From Kiritimatiellia bacterium (GTDB lineage: Bacteria; Verrucomicrobiota; Kiritimatiellia; CAIVKH01): a stretch of 64,000 nucleotides of DNA. Positions within the stretch are counted from its first letter, which is position 1. Each line of letters opens with the position of its first letter. The DNA lies in assembly GCA_025054615.1 (NCBI GenBank), contig JANWZO010000012.1:5818-69817 (forward strand). Reading direction: 5' to 3'. Below, one piece after another: positions 36,002 through 45,578 of the stretch. Position numbers and translations under genes: made by a program. Below the pieces are notes generated by a model. That model searched no databases. It worked only from the letters and a program-made list of their open reading frames with translations, and was not told where the DNA came from.

Positions 36002-37063
36002 CTATTCGTCCCCGTCGGTGGATGCGGCGGCAAGATGCATTTCTTTTGCCTTCGCCTTGATTTTCTCAATGAGCTTGTTCTGCAGCTCGAGATCATTTTC
36101 CAGGGTGTCGCGCACAGCGTCCCGGCCCTGGCCGAGCTGCTGCCCCTCGAGCGAAAGCCAGGAGCCGCGCTTTTCCAGCAGCCCGTATTGCATGGCCGCA
36201 TCCACGATCGAACCTGTCCACGAAATGCCATGCGCGTAAAGAATATCGAATTCTGCCTCGGCGAAGGGCGGCGCCACCTTGTTTTTGACCACCTTGACCT
36301 TCGTTCGGCTTCCGTAGACCTTCCCGCTGGGATCTTTCAAGGTTCCGACCCGCCGCACGTCGAGTCGGACCGACGCATAAAACTTGAGTGCGCGGCCGCC
36401 GGGCGTTGTTTCCGGATTGCCAAACATCACGCCAATCTTCTCTCGAATTTGATTGGTGAAGATGCAGCAGCACTTCGACTTGTTGATGGCGCCCGTCAGC
36501 TTGCGGAGCGCCTGAGACATCAGGCGGGCCTGCAAACCGACATGCGAATCGCCCATCGCGCCCTCCAGCTCCGCCTTCGGCGCAAGCGCGGCCACCGAGT
36601 CGACGACGACCACATCCAGGGAGTTGCTTTTGACCAGCGACTCGGCGATCTGCAGCGCCTCCTCGCCGGAATCCGGTTGCGCCACCAAGAGTTCGTCAAG
36701 ATTTACCCCGATTTTCTTAGCATAGGTGGGATCCAGCGCGTGTTCTGCATCGATGAACGCCGCCAATCCGCCCGCCTTTTGCGCGTTGGCGATGATGTGA
36801 AGCACCAGCGTGGTCTTTCCCGACGACTCCGGGCCAAAGACTTCAATGATCCGCCCTCGCGGCACGCCGCCGACGCCGATGGCTAGATCGAGTGTCAACG
36901 CCCCGGTCGAAATCGCGGGCACCTCGACAATTTTTTCCTCCTCGCCGAGCCGCATAATGGCACCATCGCCGAATTCCTTTTGGATCTGGGCGATGACCGA
37001 AGCGAGCGCGGCTGGTATTTTCTTTTCCTCTTTGGCGGGCTCTTTGGCGCCCTTGGTCGGCAT
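36002..37063 (-). CDS. recA: Recombinase RecA
   Basis: A 353-residue RecA. Walker [11 protein letters not shown], Walker [13 protein letters not shown], loop L1 with [20 protein letters not shown], the [22 protein letters not shown]2 region and C-terminal domain with acidic end are present. It mediates homologous recombination and SOS co-protease activity. ATG 37063 is used: AAAGGAG lies 7 nt before it, and the thpR stop (37066) is just upstream, so translation is coupled. No separate SOS box was seen next to it because it is the distal gene of an operon. Confidence 0.98.
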
Positions 37064-37065
37064 GG

Positions 37066-37659
37066 TCACACTCCTTTCAATTTGGCCGCGTGCAACAAGG
37101 TATATATCGCCTCGGGGCGATCCGGCTGGCTGCGGTAAAAACAGACGCGCTCCACCATGAACTCCCCTGGCGAGTCATACACTACAGACCCAACCCACGA
37201 AGTCAACGCGGCGGCGTTTTGAGTCGACCGAATCCTCGCCAGCGTCACGTGCGGATGGAATGGCCGGGATTCGAGGGGAAATCCAAGGGAGGCCACACCC
37301 TTTGCGATCTCTTCCCGCAGGCTTGCCAGCGGTTCGGAGGGTTCCACTCCCAGCCAGACCACCCGAGGAGCACGCGGCGGCCCGAAAATGCCCACGCCAG
37401 CGAGCCTGCAGGGGAACGGGCGAACACCCTCCGCCGCCGCCTCTATCACACGCACGATCTGGGGTATCCGAGCGACAAAGGTGTCCCCTAGAAAAACCAT
37501 CGTCACATGGCTGTGTTCCGGTTTCGGGCAACTGACACGCACTCCCGTCCGGCGGAGTTTCTCTTGCAGCCGCGCGATCAGTGGATGCAGCTCGGCCGGT
37601 ACATCGATCGCGATGAATGTTCGCCACACCTCATCCGGTGCCGGCGTAACCCGCTCCAT
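37066..37659 (-). CDS. thpR: RNA 2',3'-cyclic phosphodiesterase ThpR
   Basis: A 197-residue 2H phosphoesterase (LigT/ThpR). Both HxTx motifs are visible: [10 protein letters not shown] and HPHVTLARI, about 87 residues apart. The family hydrolyses 2',3'-cyclic phosphates on RNA ends or ligates 2'-5' linkages in vitro. It lies between cinA (4 nt gap) and recA (2 nt gap), an arrangement seen in several phyla, which suggests a link to competence or recombination without showing mechanism. Confidence 0.9.
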
Positions 37660-37663
37660 CGGT

Positions 37664-38902
37664 TTAGGCTCCCTGCAGGACCAGACGCCTCAACGCGTCC
37701 ATCGCCCATTGAGCGGATAACTGCTTAATGACACTGCGAACGCCCGAAAATTTTCGTTGTCGCTCCTCGAAACGCGATCCGTCGGTCGCGCACATGTACA
37801 CGAGACCTACGGGCTTTTGCGGGGAACCGCCGGAGGGGCCGGCGATGCCGGTGACCGCCAGGCCATAATTCGAGCCGAATCGCGCTCGGACGCCGAGCGC
37901 CATCGCGCGGGCGGTTTCGGCGCTGACCGCACCGTGCGCGTCGAGCACTTGCGGTGGCACCCCCAGATCCCGGGTTTTCGATTCGTTCGAATACGCGACC
38001 ACGCCCCCAAGAAAAACGTGGGAGCTGCCGGGAACCTCCGTGAAGAGGTGTCCAATCAATCCGCCCGTGCACGACTCGGCAATTGCGACTGTACGACCTA
38101 ATGATCTCAAGAGATCGACGAGCGCCTCCTCGAGGTTGCAGGGCCGCTCCGCGTATATCCACGGAGCAAGGGTTTCACGCGCGCGGGCAGCGGCCCGATC
38201 CAGGGCCTCCTCGCGGTTAGGCGGCGCCGAAAGGCGGATTTCTACGCGGCCCGGCCGCGCGCAGTAGGCGATGTCGATTCCGGGGCCCGGAAACTCTGAT
38301 TCGGGAAGCAACCGCAGAATTTCCGATTCGCCGATGCAACAGGTCATGAAAATGCGGCGAACCGGCGGCGTACCCGCAAGGGCGCGAAGCGTGGGCAGGA
38401 TGCCGTTTTCGACTACGGCGCGGAATTCCGCTGGGGGGCCGGGCGTCAAATACAGTCGCCGCCCGCGAATTTCAATCAATTCCCCCGGGCAAAAGCCGAC
38501 CTCGTTTTCGAGCACGGTTGCGCCCTGCACGATCAGCGCGTGCCTCGCGGCGATGTCCGTGAATACTCGACCGGCGGCCTCGAACCGTTTGCGCAACTTT
38601 TCTCGCGTCGGCTCATGCATCACCACGGCTGTGCCGGCAATTTCGGCGGCCACGTCGCGCGTTAGGTCATCGCTGGTCGGGCCCAACCCGCCGCTGGTGA
38701 TTACAATGGGCGAACGCGCAAGTGCTTGTTCGATGGCGTCGCGGATCGCCGCTCGGTCGTCCGGCACCGTCGTCTCACGCACCAGCGGAATGCCCAGCGG
38801 CTCCAGCGCGGTGGCCAGCGTGGCGACATGCGTATTGACAGTTCTGCCGGACAGCAGTTCGGAGCCCGTGCAAATGAGCTCGGCGAACACCTCAGCGCGC
38901 AT
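37664..38902 (-). CDS. cinA: CinA-family protein (competence/damage-inducible, NMN deamidase-type)
   Basis: A 412-residue two-domain CinA. The N-terminal MoaB/COG1058 domain shows CTGSELLSGRTVNTH, SGGLGPTSDDLTRDV and TPGPPAEF. The C-terminal NMN amidohydrolase domain shows AIAESCTGGLIGHLFTEVPGSS and GLAVTGIAGPSGGSPQKPVG. The family deamidates NMN and hydrolyses ADP-ribose and is often next to recA. The ATG at 38902 overlaps the galE stop by 11 nt; the longer open frame upstream lies over galE and is not used. Confidence 0.95.
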   Translation of the reverse strand: MRAEVFAELICTGSELLSGRTVNTHVATLATALEPLGIPLVRETTVPDDRAAIRDAIEQALARSPIVITSGGLGPTSDDLTRDVAAEIAGTAVVMHEPTREKLRKRFEAAGRVFTDIAARHALIVQGATVLENEVGFCPGELIEIRGRRLYLTPGPPAEFRAVVENGILPTLRALAGTPPVRRIFMTCCIGESEILRLLPESEFPGPGIDIAYCARPGRVEIRLSAPPNREEALDRAAARARETLAPWIYAERPCNLEEALVDLLRSLGRTVAIAESCTGGLIGHLFTEVPGSSHVFLGGVVAYSNESKTRDLGVPPQVLDAHGAVSAETARAMALGVRARFGSNYGLAVTGIAGPSGGSPQKPVGLVYMCATDGSRFEERQRKFSGVRSVIKQLSAQWAMDALRRLVLQGA

Positions 38903-39863
38903 AACCTCGGGGATGCGCCAGGTGCCATTTCCAAGCGTGTTCGACGATCGTCCGCAGGTCGGGATAACGCGGCTTCCAGCCCAGAACGGTCCGGGCTTTC
39001 GAGGAATCCGCAATGAGCCGAGGTGGGTCGCCGGGCCGGCGCGGTGCGATTTCGGAATGGATCGGGCGCCCCGTGACCTCGCGCGCCGCGTCGATGACCT
39101 GTTTGACCGAATACCCGTCCCCGTTCCCCAAATTGAAGGCGCCCCGCACATCTTTTTCGAGCGCGAGAATATGCGCCTCAGCAAGGTCGACGATGTGGAT
39201 GTAATCCCGAATGCAGGTGCCATCCGGCGTCTCATAATCGTCGCCAAAAATTTTGACGGATGAAGCCCGCCCCATCGCGACAAACAGCACGTTGGGAATC
39301 AGATGGGTTTCCGGGTCGTGGTGTTCGCCGAATTTTTCGGTCGCTCCCGCCGCATTGAAATAGCGGAGGAAGACCGATCGCGTGCCCTCCCGCTCATCGC
39401 GCCATCGGAGAATTTTCTCGAACAGGAGCTTCGATTCGCCGTAGGGATTGGTCGGACGCTGAGGCAAGTCCTCGGTCATCGGAATCTTCTCAGGAATTCC
39501 ATAGGTCGCGCAGGTAGACGAGAAGATGATTGTACGCACGTCGGCCGCCTTCATGGCGTCCGCGAGATTGATACCGCCGAGGACATTGTTGCGGAAATAC
39601 AACATCGGGTTTTCCATCGATTCCCCGACCAACGCGTAGGCCGCAAAATGCATCACCGCGTCCGGTTTCGCGGCCCGCATGGCGGCGACGATGTCCTCGC
39701 GATTCCGCAAATCGCCCTCGATCAGCCGGGCGCGCGGGTCCACCGCGTCGCGATGCCCCCGCTCGAAATTATCGAACACGACGACCTCGTGCCCTCGGTC
39801 CAGAAGAAGCTCGGCGGCGACGCTCCCGATGTAACCGCCTCCGCCCGTCACGAAGACTTTCAT
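38892..39863 (-). CDS. galE: UDP-glucose 4-epimerase
   Basis: A 323-residue SDR with MKVFVTGGGGYIGSVAAE (NAD motif), VVFDNFERGH, catalytic YGESK and the GalE-type GDYETPDGTCIRDYIHIVDLA and FNLGNGDGYSVKQVI. It interconverts UDP-glucose and UDP-galactose (possibly the N-acetyl forms). ATG 39863 gives the normal N-terminus; ATG 39872 three codons earlier is an alternative. Placement inside a recA operon is unusual in function but shared with its neighbours by overlap and strand. Confidence 0.95.
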   Translation of the reverse strand: MKVFVTGGGGYIGSVAAELLLDRGHEVVVFDNFERGHRDAVDPRARLIEGDLRNREDIVAAMRAAKPDAVMHFAAYALVGESMENPMLYFRNNVLGGINLADAMKAADVRTIIFSSTCATYGIPEKIPMTEDLPQRPTNPYGESKLLFEKILRWRDEREGTRSVFLRYFNAAGATEKFGEHHDPETHLIPNVLFVAMGRASSVKIFGDDYETPDGTCIRDYIHIVDLAEAHILALEKDVRGAFNLGNGDGYSVKQVIDAAREVTGRPIHSEIAPRRPGDPPRLIADSSKARTVLGWKPRYPDLRTIVEHAWKWHLAHPRGYAR

Positions 39864-39904
39864 GAGTTCCATATTAAGGCGGGGCGAGCCGCTGACGAGA
39901 AAAT

Positions 39905-40375
39905 TCAGGTGTCCGGAGAGGCGTCGTCCTCGTTTTTATCTTCCTTGGATTCGATCTGTTCGACCGCCCAGCTCATGTCGCGCGCAGCCTCCCACACGTG
40001 GCGGGCCACATAGATGGGGCTGCCATGCTGCACCGCAAGCGCAATTGAATCGCTCGGCCGCGCATCGATTTCAACCAGACTTTTGCCGAGTTCGTTCTCC
40101 TGCAGCAAGAAGAGGCGCGCGAAAAAAGTGTCATCCTTCAGGTCGTTGACCACCACCTTTTGGACGCGCACGCCGAGCCCCGCGAAGATATTGCCGATCA
40201 GCTCGTGGGTCAGCGGCCGTGGCGTTTTCTTTTTGTTCAGTGCCATGGCGATTGCGCCGCCCACATATTCATCCACAAAAATGGCAATCGTCTTCTCCGA
40301 GTTCGTCAGGAGGACGCCGACGCCATCGGGAACGGAGAGCAGACCGCGAATCTGGACCGCGATTTCTTCCGCCAT
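39905..40375 (-). CDS. Bifunctional nuclease domain (BFN, DUF151) protein
   Basis: A 156-residue protein of the BFN/DUF151 family. Landmarks are EKTIAIFVDEYVGGAIAMAL, RPLTHELIGNIF, DTFFARLFL and the strongly conserved EIDARPSDSIALAVQHGSPIYV. A plant member has DNase/RNase activity; a bacterial role is not settled. The C-terminus is acidic. ATG 40375 lies 4 nt after the stop of a 24-codon ORF that carries the predicted transcription start. Confidence 0.88.
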   Translation of the reverse strand: MAEEIAVQIRGLLSVPDGVGVLLTNSEKTIAIFVDEYVGGAIAMALNKKKTPRPLTHELIGNIFAGLGVRVQKVVVNDLKDDTFFARLFLLQENELGKSLVEIDARPSDSIALAVQHGSPIYVARHVWEAARDMSWAVEQIESKEDKNEDDASPDT

Positions 40376-40379
40376 CGCC

Positions 40380-40454
40380 CTACAAGTCCCTCGTGACGTA
40401 GAGAACCATATAGAAAATCCCTATGATCATCGCCGCTGACAGCAAGGCATCCAT
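40380..40454 (-). CDS. 24-residue hydrophobic small ORF heading the recA operon
   Basis: ATG 40454 to TAG 40380 encodes MDALLSAAMIIGIFYMVLYV plus four polar residues, a single membrane-spanning helix with a short charged tail, in size and shape like KdpF/CydX-type microproteins. It begins exactly 7 nt after a consensus TATAAT, so it would be read from a leaderless transcript, and ends 4 nt before the BFN start. It could be a real microprotein or a leader that couples translation. No homologue is known to me. Confidence 0.5.
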   Translation of the reverse strand: MDALLSAAMIIGIFYMVLYVTRDL

Positions 40455-40461
40455 CGCTCAA

Positions 40462-40490
40462 ATTATACAGCGGCCGCTGCCTGCCGTCAT
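40462..40490 (-). promoter_or_regulatory. Promoter of the BFN-galE-cinA-thpR-recA operon
   Basis: On the minus strand ATGACG (40490-40485), a 17-bp spacer and consensus TATAAT (40467-40462). Seven nt follow before ATG 40454. This is the only clear promoter found upstream of recA on that strand in the cluster. Confidence 0.65.
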
Positions 40491-40553: not shown

Positions 40554-40859
40554 TTATTTATCTTTCGATTCCCGGGATTCCCCGCCGCCGGTCTCCTGTA
40601 ACAATTTGTTGAACTTTTCGACAATGGGCAGCGGGTCCCGCCGAAAATCCGCTAGGCAATCCTTGCAGCAGAATCTGAATTGTTGGCCTTCATAGTCGGC
40701 CATATAGGGCTCGGCGTACGGATCGAGCTTTTCGCCCGACACAACGCAAAAGGTAAAAGGATACGGCTTTGCACCCTTGGACTCCGAAGATCCCACCTCT
40801 CCGGCTCTTGCCGCGAAAGCCGCCGCGCAGAGCAAACACATCCAGATCCACGGATTCAT
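40554..40859 (-). CDS. Secreted TRASH/YHS-like metal-binding protein
   Basis: A 101-residue protein with a signal peptide (WIWMCLLCAAAFAARAG). The mature part has a YHS/TRASH-like pattern: CVVSGEKLDPYAEPY followed by FRFCCKDCLADFRRDP, giving four cysteines that could bind a soft metal such as copper. GAAGGAGC Shine-Dalgarno precedes ATG 40859. It is the last gene of the RND efflux operon, 56 nt after the DUF6132 gene, and its location suggests periplasmic metal handling. Confidence 0.7.
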   Translation of the reverse strand: MNPWIWMCLLCAAAFAARAGEVGSSESKGAKPYPFTFCVVSGEKLDPYAEPYMADYEGQQFRFCCKDCLADFRRDPLPIVEKFNKLLQETGGGESRESKDK

Positions 40860-40915
40860 CTTCGCTCCTTCTTTGTTACGATTTGTTCGACAGCGAGCCA
40901 GCCCGCGGCGTTGAA

Positions 40916-41086
40916 TCATTTGCCGGCCACAAGAGCACCCAGCATGCCATAGACCAGCATCGAAACCCAGGGATTTGCCGTGATCGGGCACGCGCCGGTT
41001 TTGCAACCGACCCACCGGTAGATCGCATATCCGATCGCCGCGCCGACTAGCGCGCCCACGATTGTTCTGGTGATGGAGGGCGTCAT
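40916..41086 (-). CDS. DUF6132-like small membrane protein
   Basis: A 56-residue protein too short for usual ORF cut-offs. Two hydrophobic helices (about residues 8-24 and 40-54) flank a polar loop with VGCKTGACPITANPW. The GC-x-TGxCPIT pattern with two cysteines is the hallmark of DUF6132 membrane proteins, which frequently accompany metal-transport or rhodanese genes. It starts 3 nt after the PII-like stop, so it is certainly cotranscribed. Function unknown; the cysteine pair could bind metal or sulfur. Confidence 0.7.
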   Translation of the reverse strand: MTPSITRTIVGALVGAAIGYAIYRWVGCKTGACPITANPWVSMLVYGMLGALVAGK

Positions 41087-41089
41087 CGC

Positions 41090-41380
41090 TCACAGCACCG
41101 CTTCGGCTGGTACGGTAAAGGCATGCAGGCGCTCGTCCGGATAGAGTTGCCCGCGGAGCGCCGTGAGCCCCGCAAGGGCGGATGCCAGCTGTTCCTCGGT
41201 AAGAACGCTGAAAATCAGCGTCTGACGGCCGGGAAATGCGGGAGTGCCAAAATGCGCGCCGGTCGCACCTGCACCCATCACCTCAGGCACTTCCGTGAAC
41301 GCTTTCGCGCCGTGCCTGCCCAGCGCATCCCGAATGTCGCGCTCGCGCGAGTGGGGTCCAATCACGATGAGCATCTTCAT
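41090..41380 (-). CDS. PII-like, RND-associated small protein (PG0541-like)
   Basis: A 96-residue protein with a ferredoxin-like PII fold pattern: MKMLIVIGPHSRERDIRDAL and GRQTLIFSVLTEEQLASAL, ending HAFTVPAEAVL. Proteins of this type regularly sit directly downstream of CusA/CzcA-class RND pumps and are thought to sense metal or nucleotide. The ATG overlaps the RND stop (ATGA). The T-loop modification residues of true PII proteins are absent, so nitrogen signalling is unlikely. Confidence 0.65.
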   Translation of the reverse strand: MKMLIVIGPHSRERDIRDALGRHGAKAFTEVPEVMGAGATGAHFGTPAFPGRQTLIFSVLTEEQLASALAGLTALRGQLYPDERLHAFTVPAEAVL

Positions 41381-44300
41381 GCTGCCACCTCCGCAGGACG
41401 ATTGCCATAGATCAGATAATAAACCACCGGGATCACCACGAGGGTGAACAGGGTCGACACAAACAATCCGAAGATCAGCGACCAGGCCAACCCGCTGAAA
41501 ATCGGGTCCAGGGTGATCGGCCACGCCCCAAGCAACGTGGTCCCCGCGGTCAACACAATCGGGCGCAGGCGAACGGCGCCCGACTCCAAAATGGCATCGG
41601 CAATCGGGCGCCCGCGCTCGACCTGCAGGCGGATGAAGTCAATCAGGATGATGCCGTTTCGCACCACGATGCCAGCCAGTGCGATCATCCCGATCATGGC
41701 CGTGGCCGTGAAAAACACGGGGTCGGGATAGCCGGCGACCGGCCGGTTGACCAAAACATTCAGCAACCAAAAGCCCGGCATTATGCCGATCATCGTCAGT
41801 GGAATCGAAAGCATGATCACCCCGGGCAGCGCATAGGACCTCGTCTCGTAAACCAGCAGGACGTAAATCCCCAGCAGAGCGGCGGCGAAGGCGAGCCCCA
41901 AATCGCGGAACACATCGACCGTGATCTTCCATTCGCCCTCGCCCGCCCATTCAACCCGAATGCCATCCGGCAGCGGGTGTTTCTTGAACCAGCTCTTGAG
42001 GGCCAGCACTGGATAAGCCGGCCCGCGGCCCGCTGTGTCCGCCGTCACATAGACGACGCGCTCAAGATTCTTGTGAAAAATGGTCTTGTCCTCCACCGTG
42101 GTTTCAAACGAACCGATCTCGCCGAGCTGGACCAGATTCCCTCCCTGACCTTTGACCGGAATCGTCTTGAGACGCTCGACATCCGACCGCAGGGCTCGCG
42201 GAAGTTGCAGGCGGATTGGCGTCTCGTTCTGTTCGCCCGGCGCGTGCAGGACACCGGCATCGTATCCGCCCAGCGCGATGCGGAGCGTTCGCGCGGCAGC
42301 CTCCACGGATACGCCGTTTCGGGCGGCCTTGTCGCGGTCCAGTCGGTAGACCACTTTGGGCTGGTCGGCCTCGACGTAGTCGTCGACATCCACCACGCCG
42401 CGCTCTTCCCGCATCCGCTTCTTGACGATTTCCGCAGCGGCGATCAGCTCCGCGTAGCGGTGATGCGGGCGTCCGTAAATTTCGGCCACAATCGTCGCCA
42501 GGACCGGCGGACCGGGCGGGACTTCGACAATCTTGACCGACGCGCCCCATTTGGCCGCAATGCGCTCCACATCGGGACGGATGCGCAGAGCGATCGCATG
42601 GCTGTTCATCTTGCGCTGCTTTCGATGCGCGAGGTTGATGCGAATGTCGGCGACATGCGGGCCCTGCCGAAGGTAATAGTGGCGGACCAGTCCGTTGAAA
42701 TCCATCGGGCTGGCGCCTCCGCTAATCGACGTGAAATTTTGCACCTCGGGGACGGTGCGCAGAAACGCCTCAAGATCTCGGACGACTGCGTCGGTCGTCT
42801 CCAGCGGCGTCCCCTCCGGCATATCGACGACCAACTGCAGTTCGTTTTTGTTGTCGAACGGCAACATTTTCAGCGGTACGACCCCCAGCGCGAGCGCCAC
42901 CGAGCCGACAAACAACAGCGCGACCACAGTGAGCATCCGCCTCGCCTTCCTCCGCGATTCGATGAACGGTCGCACGAGCCGGGAGTAAACCCGATACACG
43001 GGAGAACGGGTCACATCCCCGGACGTTTCGTCGTGCGAGGCGAAGTCCGCGCCTTTGAGCATCACCTTGGAAACCCACGGCGTGATCATGAGCGAGACGA
43101 TCATCGAGCTAAGCATCGCCAGCGGCACATTCAGCGCCATTGGCCGCATGTATGGACCCATCATTCCCGTGATGAAAAACATGGGCACAAAGGCGACCAT
43201 CACGGCCAGTGTCGCGAGAATCAGCGGGGGCATGACCTCGTTCATCGCCGTGAGGATCGCCTCATCGCGGCGCTGCTTGCCGAGCTTGAGGTGGCGATAA
43301 ATGTTCTCGACCGCGACGATCGGATCGTCGACCAGAAGGCCGAGCGCCAGGATGAGCGCGAACAAGGTAACCCGGTTGATCGTATATCCCGCGAGGTAGT
43401 TGACGAGGAGCGTCAATGAATACGTGATCGGAACCGCCAGCGCGACAATCAAGCCCACCCGCCAGTTCATGATCAGCGCAATGAGCACGATCACCGTAAT
43501 CACCGCTTCGCCGAGGCTCGTGACCAGGCTATTGACCTTTTCATTCGCCGTTTGCCCATAGTCCCGAGTCACGACGGCCTCCACTTCATGCGGGATGATC
43601 ACGCCGCGCAGCGATTCGATCATCGCTCGGACCTCCCGCGTGACGTGGACCGCATTGCTGCCCTTCTTCTTGGCGACGGCGATCGTCACGGCGGGCTGCG
43701 GCTCGGCTGCTGATTGGCCGGCCGAAGCCGCGGGACCGAAGCCGAAACGGGAATAGGTCTTCAATTCGGCCGGGCCGTCGAGCACTTCGGCAACGTCGCG
43801 CAGATATACCGGTCGGCCATCGTGCAGCCCCACGAGCAAATCGGCCACCTCGCGCGCGTCTTTGAGGAATGGCCCCGCAGACACCTTCACCGACACGCCC
43901 GCCTGGTCGAACGAGCCGCTCTCCAACTGGGCGTTCGACGCTTGAATCGCCGCCGCCACCTCTCCCGGCGACATTCCATACGCGGCCAGGCGGTTCGCAT
44001 CGAGTTGGACGGTCACCACGCGCTTTTCTCCGCCGTGGATCGTGATCGCGGCGGTGTTCTCGATGTGTTGCAGACGGGCGACAACCTCCTCCGCGATACG
44101 ATAGAGCTCGAACGTGTCGTACCTGCGGCTGGTCAGCGTAACATTCACCACGGGAACGTCATCGACCTCGACCGGCTTAATAACCCAGCCGGTTATGCCG
44201 GGCGTCACCTTGTCGACGTTTTGGAAAACCTTGTTGTAGAGTTTGATCAGGCTTTCCTCACGGTCCTCGCCGACAAAAAATCGAACCGTGATGATCGCCT

Positions 44301-44583
44301 GCCCGGGCATGGACATCGAGTAGACGTACTCGACTCCATCGATCTGATAGAGCATCCGCTCTAGCCGGGACGCGACCAGCCGCTCCACTTCCTCCGCACT
44401 GCCGCCAGGATACTGCACAAAGATGTCCGCTAGCGGCACGACGATTTGCGGCTCCTCCTCCCGCGGCGTCGCCAGCAGGGCGATTGCGCCCGCCGCCAGC
44501 GCAACCAACATCAGAAGGATCGAAAGATTCCCGCGAAGAAACGCCTCGATCAGGCGGGCGACACCTGAATGGGACCCATTCAT
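41377..44583 (-). CDS. RND-family efflux pump, inner-membrane subunit
   Basis: A 1068-residue AcrB/CusA-class transporter. TM1 is near residues 17-40 (LSILLMLVALAAGAIALL); the porter domains follow (VEYVYSMSMPGQAIITVRF), then the central TM block with LALGLLVDDPIVAVENIYRHL holding the proton-relay aspartates, and a second half ending in GIVVRNGIILIDFIRL. It is closer to HAE-type or hybrid pumps than to CzcA: the conserved metal-relay pattern could not be confirmed. ATG 44583 shares one base with the adaptor stop (TGATG). No outer-membrane channel gene is nearby, so a shared TolC is assumed. Confidence 0.93.
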   Translation of the reverse strand: MNGSHSGVARLIEAFLRGNLSILLMLVALAAGAIALLATPREEEPQIVVPLADIFVQYPGGSAEEVERLVASRLERMLYQIDGVEYVYSMSMPGQAIITVRFFVGEDREESLIKLYNKVFQNVDKVTPGITGWVIKPVEVDDVPVVNVTLTSRRYDTFELYRIAEEVVARLQHIENTAAITIHGGEKRVVTVQLDANRLAAYGMSPGEVAAAIQASNAQLESGSFDQAGVSVKVSAGPFLKDAREVADLLVGLHDGRPVYLRDVAEVLDGPAELKTYSRFGFGPAASAGQSAAEPQPAVTIAVAKKKGSNAVHVTREVRAMIESLRGVIIPHEVEAVVTRDYGQTANEKVNSLVTSLGEAVITVIVLIALIMNWRVGLIVALAVPITYSLTLLVNYLAGYTINRVTLFALILALGLLVDDPIVAVENIYRHLKLGKQRRDEAILTAMNEVMPPLILATLAVMVAFVPMFFITGMMGPYMRPMALNVPLAMLSSMIVSLMITPWVSKVMLKGADFASHDETSGDVTRSPVYRVYSRLVRPFIESRRKARRMLTVVALLFVGSVALALGVVPLKMLPFDNKNELQLVVDMPEGTPLETTDAVVRDLEAFLRTVPEVQNFTSISGGASPMDFNGLVRHYYLRQGPHVADIRINLAHRKQRKMNSHAIALRIRPDVERIAAKWGASVKIVEVPPGPPVLATIVAEIYGRPHHRYAELIAAAEIVKKRMREERGVVDVDDYVEADQPKVVYRLDRDKAARNGVSVEAAARTLRIALGGYDAGVLHAPGEQNETPIRLQLPRALRSDVERLKTIPVKGQGGNLVQLGEIGSFETTVEDKTIFHKNLERVVYVTADTAGRGPAYPVLALKSWFKKHPLPDGIRVEWAGEGEWKITVDVFRDLGLAFAAALLGIYVLLVYETRSYALPGVIMLSIPLTMIGIMPGFWLLNVLVNRPVAGYPDPVFFTATAMIGMIALAGIVVRNGIILIDFIRLQVERGRPIADAILESGAVRLRPIVLTAGTTLLGAWPITLDPIFSGLAWSLIFGLFVSTLFTLVVIPVVYYLIYGNRPAEVAA

Positions 44584-45578
44584 CACCGGGCCTCCGCCAA
44601 AATCACATCCCCATCCGCCAGCCCCGCGAGAATCTCCACCCGCCCTCCGACGGACGGTCCTGTCCGGACGAGGCGGTCGACGACACGGTCCCCGCGCACC
44701 AGCCCAACCGTCTCGAGCTGGCCAACGCGACGTACCGACGAAGCGGGCGCGAAAATAGCCAGCCGCGGCTCCGTCTCCACCCAAAGTCGGCCAAACGCAC
44801 CGGGTAGCAGATCCGCTTCCGGCCGTTGCAGGTCAACACGCACGATCTGCGTGCGGCTCCGAGGATCGATTTCCCCGACAATCTCTGCCACGACGCCGGA
44901 CAAGGAGAGGGGCGGATGCTCAACACTGACGGGAACGGACGCACCGAGCGAAAGAAACCGAATCAATCTGACTGGAGCGGCCGCTTCCAGTCGCATCCGA
45001 GTCGGGTCATACAACGCCATTAATTCCTGCCCGGGCGAGGCAAGGTCGCCCACTTCCACGTGCCGCTCGATGACAACGCCTGTCAAGGGCGAGCGAATTT
45101 CCGTGTAGGAGAGCATAACGCGGATGCGGTCCACCTGGGCCCTCGCAGAGCGATACGCGCTTTCGGCCGCGGTCAGTTCTTGCTCACTTGCGGTCCGAGC
45201 CTCGAACAGGCGTCGGGTCCGGTCATAGTCTGCCTCCGCCTGCCTGAGCTGCGCCTCCGCCGCCGTCAGTTGCTCCCTGATCTCCCGATCATCCAGCACG
45301 AGCAGCACCTGCCCCCGTTCGACCCGCTGCCCCGCGGATGCGCGAACTTCCGAGACCTGCGCCTGAATTCTCGCCGCAACCTTGACGCGCTCCGCCGCGC
45401 TAACCGTCCCCACGACGTCAATCCGGGAGCGCACCTGCTCCACGCCCACGGTCACGACTGGTACGCCCGCCGGCAGCGGGCGACCTTCCTCGCGATGGAC
45501 GTAGCCCGGCTGAATCTTGTTACGGCCGCAGCCCACCCAGATGCCCGCTGCGACCAGGATGATCACGACTTGTTTCAT
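44583..45578 (-). CDS. RND efflux periplasmic adaptor (membrane-fusion protein)
   Basis: A 331-residue MFP. The N-terminus is a lipoprotein signal (VVIILVAAGIWVGC, cysteine about residue 17). A lipoyl-like half motif (VAARIQAQVSEV and GVVIERHVEVGDLASPGQELM) flanks an alpha-helical hairpin (EQLTAAEAQLRQAEADYDRTRR), followed by beta-barrel and membrane-proximal domains. It bridges the RND subunit to an outer-membrane channel. First gene of the five-gene efflux operon; upstream lies an imperfect 33-bp dyad that could be an operator. Confidence 0.92.
   Translation of the reverse strand: MKQVVIILVAAGIWVGCGRNKIQPGYVHREEGRPLPAGVPVVTVGVEQVRSRIDVVGTVSAAERVKVAARIQAQVSEVRASAGQRVERGQVLLVLDDREIREQLTAAEAQLRQAEADYDRTRRLFEARTASEQELTAAESAYRSARAQVDRIRVMLSYTEIRSPLTGVVIERHVEVGDLASPGQELMALYDPTRMRLEAAAPVRLIRFLSLGASVPVSVEHPPLSLSGVVAEIVGEIDPRSRTQIVRVDLQRPEADLLPGAFGRLWVETEPRLAIFAPASSVRRVGQLETVGLVRGDRVVDRLVRTGPSVGGRVEILAGLADGDVILAEAR

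Follow-up and report, generated by a model that had tools for sequence, protein, structure and literature searches.

The stretch of DNA analyzed here (64,000 nucleotides, referred to as the window) originates from contig 12 of a 2.48-Mb assembly of a Kiritimatiellia bacterium, a representative of a bacterial class with few cultured members. On its minus strand, a promoter-like element, an open reading frame (ORF) of 24 codons, and the genes for a bifunctional nuclease (BFN), an epimerase, CinA, a LigT-family protein, and RecA follow one another in this order (Table 1). The spacer between the two promoter hexamers comprises 17 nt, the heptanucleotide TTGAGCG lies between the -10 hexamer and the ATG at 40454, and the 4-nt gap GGCG separates the TAG codon of the short ORF from the ATG of BFN at 40375. 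This organization, with ATGACG-N17-TATAAT ahead of a 24-codon ORF that stops 4 nt before the series BFN-galE-cinA-thpR-recA, had been proposed from the letters of the window alone (the sequence-only reading) and is borne out on the minus strand, BFN being identified as PF02577.

Several small genes are located upstream of the locus on the same strand (40554-41380), including those for a YHS-domain protein, which scores just under the Pfam cut-off, a 56-aa DUF6132 protein, and a P-II-like protein. They are adjoined by a putative efflux pump gene within 41377-44784, a label given from reading the sequence.

Table 1. Features of the microprotein locus in the window
Feature	Coordinates	Strand	Remarks
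-35 hexamer ATGACG	40485..40490	-	placement relative to the start codon conserved in relatives
-10 hexamer TATAAT	40462..40467	-	ends 7 nt before the start codon
Microprotein gene MDALLSAAMIIGIFYMVLYVTRDL	40380..40454	-	24 codons; ATG 40454; TAG ends at 40380; stop included in the coordinates
BFN (bifunctional nuclease)	39905..40375	-	PF02577, E 8.8e-31; a neighbor, not a constant partner
galE-like NAD-dependent epimerase	38892..39872	-	downstream of BFN, same direction
cinA	37664..38902	-	start at 38902 chosen, putative
thpR-like RNA 2',3'-cyclic phosphodiesterase, LigT/2'-5' RNA ligase family	37066..37659	-	
recA	36002..37069	-	

Distribution in the class Kiritimatiellia

A BFN gene was detected in 44 of 58 genomes, and 31 BFN loci were read, two of them the window's own. 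A strict regular-expression scan of the relatives gave few copies of the short ORF and was replaced by a position-weight scan, which revealed comparable ORFs of 24 residues ahead of BFN in another 15 genomes. A first profile, composed of 16 sequences, matched 60 of 288 Kiritimatiellia genomes at E values of at most 0.1; no value fell between 7.2e-8 and 0.0075. A second profile of 35 sequences, including sequences found by the first, matched 47 of the 288 genomes, distributed over 11 families and 27 genera, with a worst E value of 8.7e-9 and none between 8.7e-9 and 0.01. Thirteen further genomes with first-profile E values of 0.009-0.1 were not confirmed by the second profile and were dropped. 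One copy, L084 (genome G147), ends one residue later; its E value was 0.0075 with the first profile and 8.7e-9 with the second, in which L084 itself is a row. When applied to 387 genomes of the phylum, the first profile produced 26 matches, 25 inside the class and one weak match outside it (G336, E 0.004), which lay below the position-weight threshold and was discarded. Additionally, a contig scan with a strict pattern derived from 8 sequences matched 59 stretches, among which 7 relatives were confirmed, their records being titled Verrucomicrobia, Kiritimatiellia/Kiritimatiellae, or plain bacterium.

The microprotein gene is absent from 241 of the 288 sampled class genomes, including near relatives of carriers such as G014 of family f8, and the microprotein is therefore dispensable at the level of the class. 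In family f1, to which the window belongs, frame breaks and loss of the start codon in close relatives that keep BFN were looked for, and all eight genomes proved to hold an intact 24-codon ORF before BFN, beginning with ATG in seven and GTG in one. More distant relatives that keep BFN can be devoid of the microprotein, for example G011, G018, and G046, the last of which has no copy beside BFN and is absent from the 47 second-profile matches. A single copy is present in 45 of the 47 genomes, and two genomes of one genus (L076 and L086) carry two tandem copies before priA, the second with a longer N-terminus.

Selection on the encoded peptide

The codon comparison covered 49 copies, drawn from these 47 genomes of 27 genera and 11 families, and in 48 of the 49 the stop codon follows directly after residue 24. 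Within genera, pS reaches 0.52 and pN 0.079, giving a pN/pS of 0.15 over 41 pairs, which are not independent; when one pair per genus is taken from the 10 genera having one, pN/pS is about 0.16 by hand calculation, and pN is lower than pS in 10 of 10. The ratio is 0.29 between genera of a family (161 pairs) and 0.50 between families (879 pairs), where synonymous sites are near saturation. Third positions account for most of the within-genus codon differences (328, against 107 at first and 53 at second positions), and genomes G041 and G030 differ by 9 synonymous and 0 nonsynonymous changes. Selection therefore acts on the peptide, and an RNA or DNA element does not explain the pattern. The codon-conservation check proposed in the sequence-only reading thus returned purifying selection, and of the two options offered there, the microprotein is upheld by its constant length, this selection, its occurrence in many genera, and its membrane-helix composition. 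There is very little doubt that it is real and conserved.

Membrane helix and predicted topology

The expectation that the ORF encodes a single hydrophobic helix agrees with the composition of the peptide. The mean Kyte-Doolittle value of residues 4-21 is 2.17, with a minimum of 1.62, and Lys or Arg occurs among the last five residues in 43 of 47 sequences and among the first six in none of the 47. With charges at the C-terminal end and none at the N-terminus, the positive-inside rule predicts an N-out, C-in orientation. Two features of a small single-pass membrane protein, conservation of the amino acids and one hydrophobic helix with topology-setting charges, are present together. Ile13 is invariant among the 47 sequences, and Ser6, Phe14, and Thr21 are nearly so. 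Genus-weighted column entropy displays its strongest periodicity at 100 degrees, the repeat of a helix, which was equaled by 114 of 5000 permutations; the significance is no more than moderate (about 2%), and few positions of a hydrophobic 24-mer are free to vary. The conserved face comprises, in the consensus, T3, S6, A7, I10, I13, F14, V17, and T21, and the simplest reading of the periodicity would be a helix with one packing face.

Promoter placement and start of translation

The promoter of the window scores 10 of 12 matches and is the sole sigma-70-like site found on the minus strand between 36000 and 45700, as the description of an only clear promoter had implied. Taken alone, it is not significant, two sites occurring in the region against 2.4 +/- 1.7 in shuffled sequences; what makes it significant is comparison with relatives, which repeatedly carry a promoter equally far from the start codon. 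A bipartite sigma-70 score, based on approximate base frequencies, was computed for the 47 copies at each gap of 0-40 nt between the -10 hexamer and the start codon. The genus-weighted mean peaks at gaps of 6-9 nt, a peak reached by 0 of 200 dinucleotide shuffles. The best position falls at this gap in 27 of 47 copies, against 4.6 expected under a uniform distribution, and outside it in 20; in 13 of 27 genera, it is the best for at least half of the copies. Binomial values for this placement were set aside, since they count related genomes as independent observations.

A -10 box 6-9 nt before the start codon is the arrangement of leaderless genes, and the gap in the window is 7 nt. The transcript of the window is predicted to start at about 40454-40457, on or just before the ATG. 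Comparison of relatives shows conservation of the promoter placement as such, with a transcript predicted to begin on the start codon or no more than a few bases from it, and leaderless transcription of the gene, as anticipated in the claim that the promoter fires at the ATG, is well supported by these scores. A Shine-Dalgarno (SD)-like site with a duplex energy of -6 or lower is present in 14 of 47 copies; a leaderless-type promoter accompanies 2 of these 14, versus 25 of the 33 copies without such a site. The gene thus seems, from these predicted sites, to start its translation in one of two ways, depending on the lineage. A rough survey of the window itself showed no TANNNT at a gap of 6-9 nt before the first ATG of 45 long ORFs, a weak result because first ATGs are often not the true starts.

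Leaderless bacterial genes have been characterized by TANNNT about 12 bp before the start codon, with Actinobacteria and Deinococcus-Thermus named as the main groups and Verrucomicrobia not mentioned in the text of that study (PMC3160421); a -10 box adjoining the start codon is also treated in PMC12340547. The microprotein gene resembles the genes described in the text of PMC3160421 in having a -10 box next to its start codon and differs from them in that a single microprotein gene shows this arrangement repeatedly in different families.

Palindromes were also observed around the promoter. A perfect 12-bp palindrome, CAGCGGCCGCTG, occupies 40468-40479 within the spacer of the window and is not the best palindrome in any other f1 genome. 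In L076, L086, and L072 (genus g51), upstream of the microprotein-priA pair, the promoter is overlapped or flanked by long palindromes (AAGTTTTCCAC...GTGGAAAACTT and TTTTCCATGGCATGGAAAA), which are likely the operator of a regulator.

Gene neighbors

The gene following the microprotein is BFN in 27 of 47 genomes, priA in 14 (all of family f26), and neither in 6. Upstream, the end of clpB lies close by in at least 19 genomes, a lower bound set by short flanks, such as the 170-605 nt available in L047, L050, L057, L059, and L074. In two f17 genomes, the microprotein stands after clpB and before a 58-aa ORF. This hydrophobic ORF is conserved directly after the microprotein in that family (L055:1598-1774, L073:2373-2549) and has no significant Pfam match. 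In L052, the microprotein lies between ORFs of the opposite strand, and in L057, a strong hairpin follows its stop codon.

BFN begins 3-6 nt after the microprotein in 6 of 8 f1 genomes; in most f26 genomes, the distance to priA, which starts with GTG, is 6-13 nt, and gaps of up to 119 nt occur in other families. Gene content was compared in 62 genomes, comprising 31 of the 47 carriers and 31 of the 241 non-carriers, chosen mainly for completeness; no BFN domain was detected in 11 of the 31 carriers and 7 of the 31 non-carriers. Since the neighbors change and carriers without a BFN domain exist, the microprotein is not a device for expressing BFN. Its conserved role is, on this comparison of loci, not tied to the adjoining gene. 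Translational coupling to BFN (4 nt in the window) or to priA (mostly 6-13 nt) may be possible in places.

Alternative explanations

The sequence-only reading had offered, as its other option, a ribosome-loading leader. Taken as a leader ORF acting in cis, its translation would load ribosomes and couple into BFN and the recA operon, while the peptide itself would be inert. The short distances to BFN in the window and in most f1 genomes agree with it, as does the spacing before priA in f26, where SD scores are often weak. A leader peptide of the BFN operon would always be expected upstream of BFN, and it is found there in only 27 of 47 genomes, with priA in its place in 14; the six loci with neither gene, including those with the hairpin and the opposite-strand ORFs, the carriers devoid of BFN, and the wider gaps of other families also speak against it. 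Moreover, amino acids have been conserved over 27 genera while synonymous sites diverged. Ribosome loading for BFN to recA is consequently not upheld as the conserved role, and this explanation is considered unlikely.

A second alternative is a toxin, small and hydrophobic, that belongs to a type I toxin-antitoxin pair under the control of an antisense RNA. The microprotein would have the length and hydrophobicity of such toxins; the tandem copies in L076 and L086 are compatible with this, as is a weak promoter-like site (9 of 12 matches) on the opposite strand at 40399-40427, although promoter-like sites in the region are as numerous as in shuffled sequences. The single copy in 45 of 47 genomes, purifying selection, a context fixed within families, and an Rfam search that gives nothing above the gathering score make a toxin highly improbable. 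The search returned one 5.8S rRNA match at 20 bits against a gathering score of 42, which was taken as chance. A third explanation regards the microprotein as an accessory component of an established respiratory or transport complex, comparable to the small subunits CydX, CcoQ, or KdpF, which belong to the same size class, and the conserved helix face would suit such a function. However, none of the corresponding genes differs significantly between carriers and non-carriers: CydA is present in 7 of 31 versus 5 of 31, KdpA in 2 of 31 versus 6 of 31, and the COX1 family in 15 of 31 versus 9 of 31, the KdpA and COX1 counts including weak matches, of which those in G042 and G103 fall below the cut-off and that in G035 narrowly passes it. 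Furthermore, all three are missing from 14 of 31 carriers, and no convincing Pfam or NCBIfam match and no PDB chain were obtained for the microprotein. A role as such an accessory subunit is considered very unlikely; cytochrome bd, Kdp, and heme-copper oxidase, which do not track the microprotein across the 62 genomes, were rejected as partners, and the co-occurrence comparison with CydA, KdpA, and COX1 yielded no partner.

Proposed role

The account preferred here is that the MDALLSAAMIIGIFYMVLYVTRDL ORF would be the gene of a family of 24-residue single-pass inner-membrane proteins in part of the class Kiritimatiellia. In the window genome, it would have its own promoter, with an mRNA whose 5' end lies on the ATG or at most about 3 nt from it, and would be translated essentially leaderless. 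The peptide would insert with its N-terminus outside and its C-terminus, bearing Lys or Arg, inside, and its conserved helix face would pack against a partner, either a larger membrane protein encoded elsewhere or itself, so that the peptide may act as a small subunit or regulator. BFN, PriA, and ClpB would be neighbors in expression and not functional partners; in the window genome, the genes from BFN to recA may share the microprotein transcript. This account as a whole, i.e., a genuine single-pass family, leaderless from its own promoter here, packing on a partner, and functionally separate from its neighbors, appears probable from the comparative sequence evidence, and it is, taken by itself, likewise fairly probable that the peptide works in the membrane by packing against a partner. 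More tentatively, a class-restricted family that has kept its start-codon promoter despite changes of neighbor could bind a single conserved membrane machine and serve it as its dedicated subunit or regulator, a proposal that falls somewhat short of an even chance.

Relation to known small proteins and implications

Scans of 35 members against Pfam and NCBIfam gave best E values of 0.0048 (DUF7789, 6 members) and 0.023, respectively, which, read as E values without the family cut-offs alongside, were judged chance similarities between membrane helices, and the microprotein profile matches no PDB chain. The closest descriptive counterpart is YohP of Escherichia coli, a 27-aa stress protein with a single transmembrane helix (abstracts of PMC7549839 and PMC12719787). 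The two are alike in size, in the single membrane helix, and in being small stand-alone proteins, a likeness at the level of description; relative to those abstracts, the microprotein differs in its Kiritimatiellia distribution, its fixed length of 24 residues, and its start-codon-adjacent promoter. The sequence of YohP is presumably different. By analogy with YohP as described there, translation of the microprotein would be expected to terminate before so short a chain has left the ribosome, and insertion would then be post-translational. KdpF and CcoQ are short single-helix membrane proteins, each serving one large complex. CydX is described in the same terms (PMC4325964, PMC6005532). The microprotein shares shortness and a single helix with these three and differs from them in that it does not co-occur with the CydA, KdpA, and COX1 genes, the neighbors identified at its 47 loci being BFN, priA, and clpB.

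In size, it also resembles the entries of GMSC, an extensive catalogue in which small proteins of 9-99 aa are predicted, the majority with no function assigned. The main text on this catalogue does not mention Verrucomicrobia (PMC11364881), and the catalogue could contain the family. The family was not found in the literature on small proteins of Kiritimatiellota/Verrucomicrobia and on leaderless microproteins, a search with supplements outside its scope, and catalogues may hold its sequences. It is thus a family of a known kind, the small single-pass membrane proteins, found in no library or literature searched.

The suggestion that length cut-offs had missed the ORF is in keeping with these results, as it is a real gene of the kind that annotation by length would skip, and it provides a clear case in which a gene below the usual cut-offs is shown to be real by comparative evidence. 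Research on small proteins gains a defined family for which aligned sequences, a predicted topology, and the mapped face of a helix are available, and studies of translation initiation gain leaderless-type and SD-led homologues of one gene. Because the microprotein is absent from many relatives, finding its partner by comparison of gene content is feasible.
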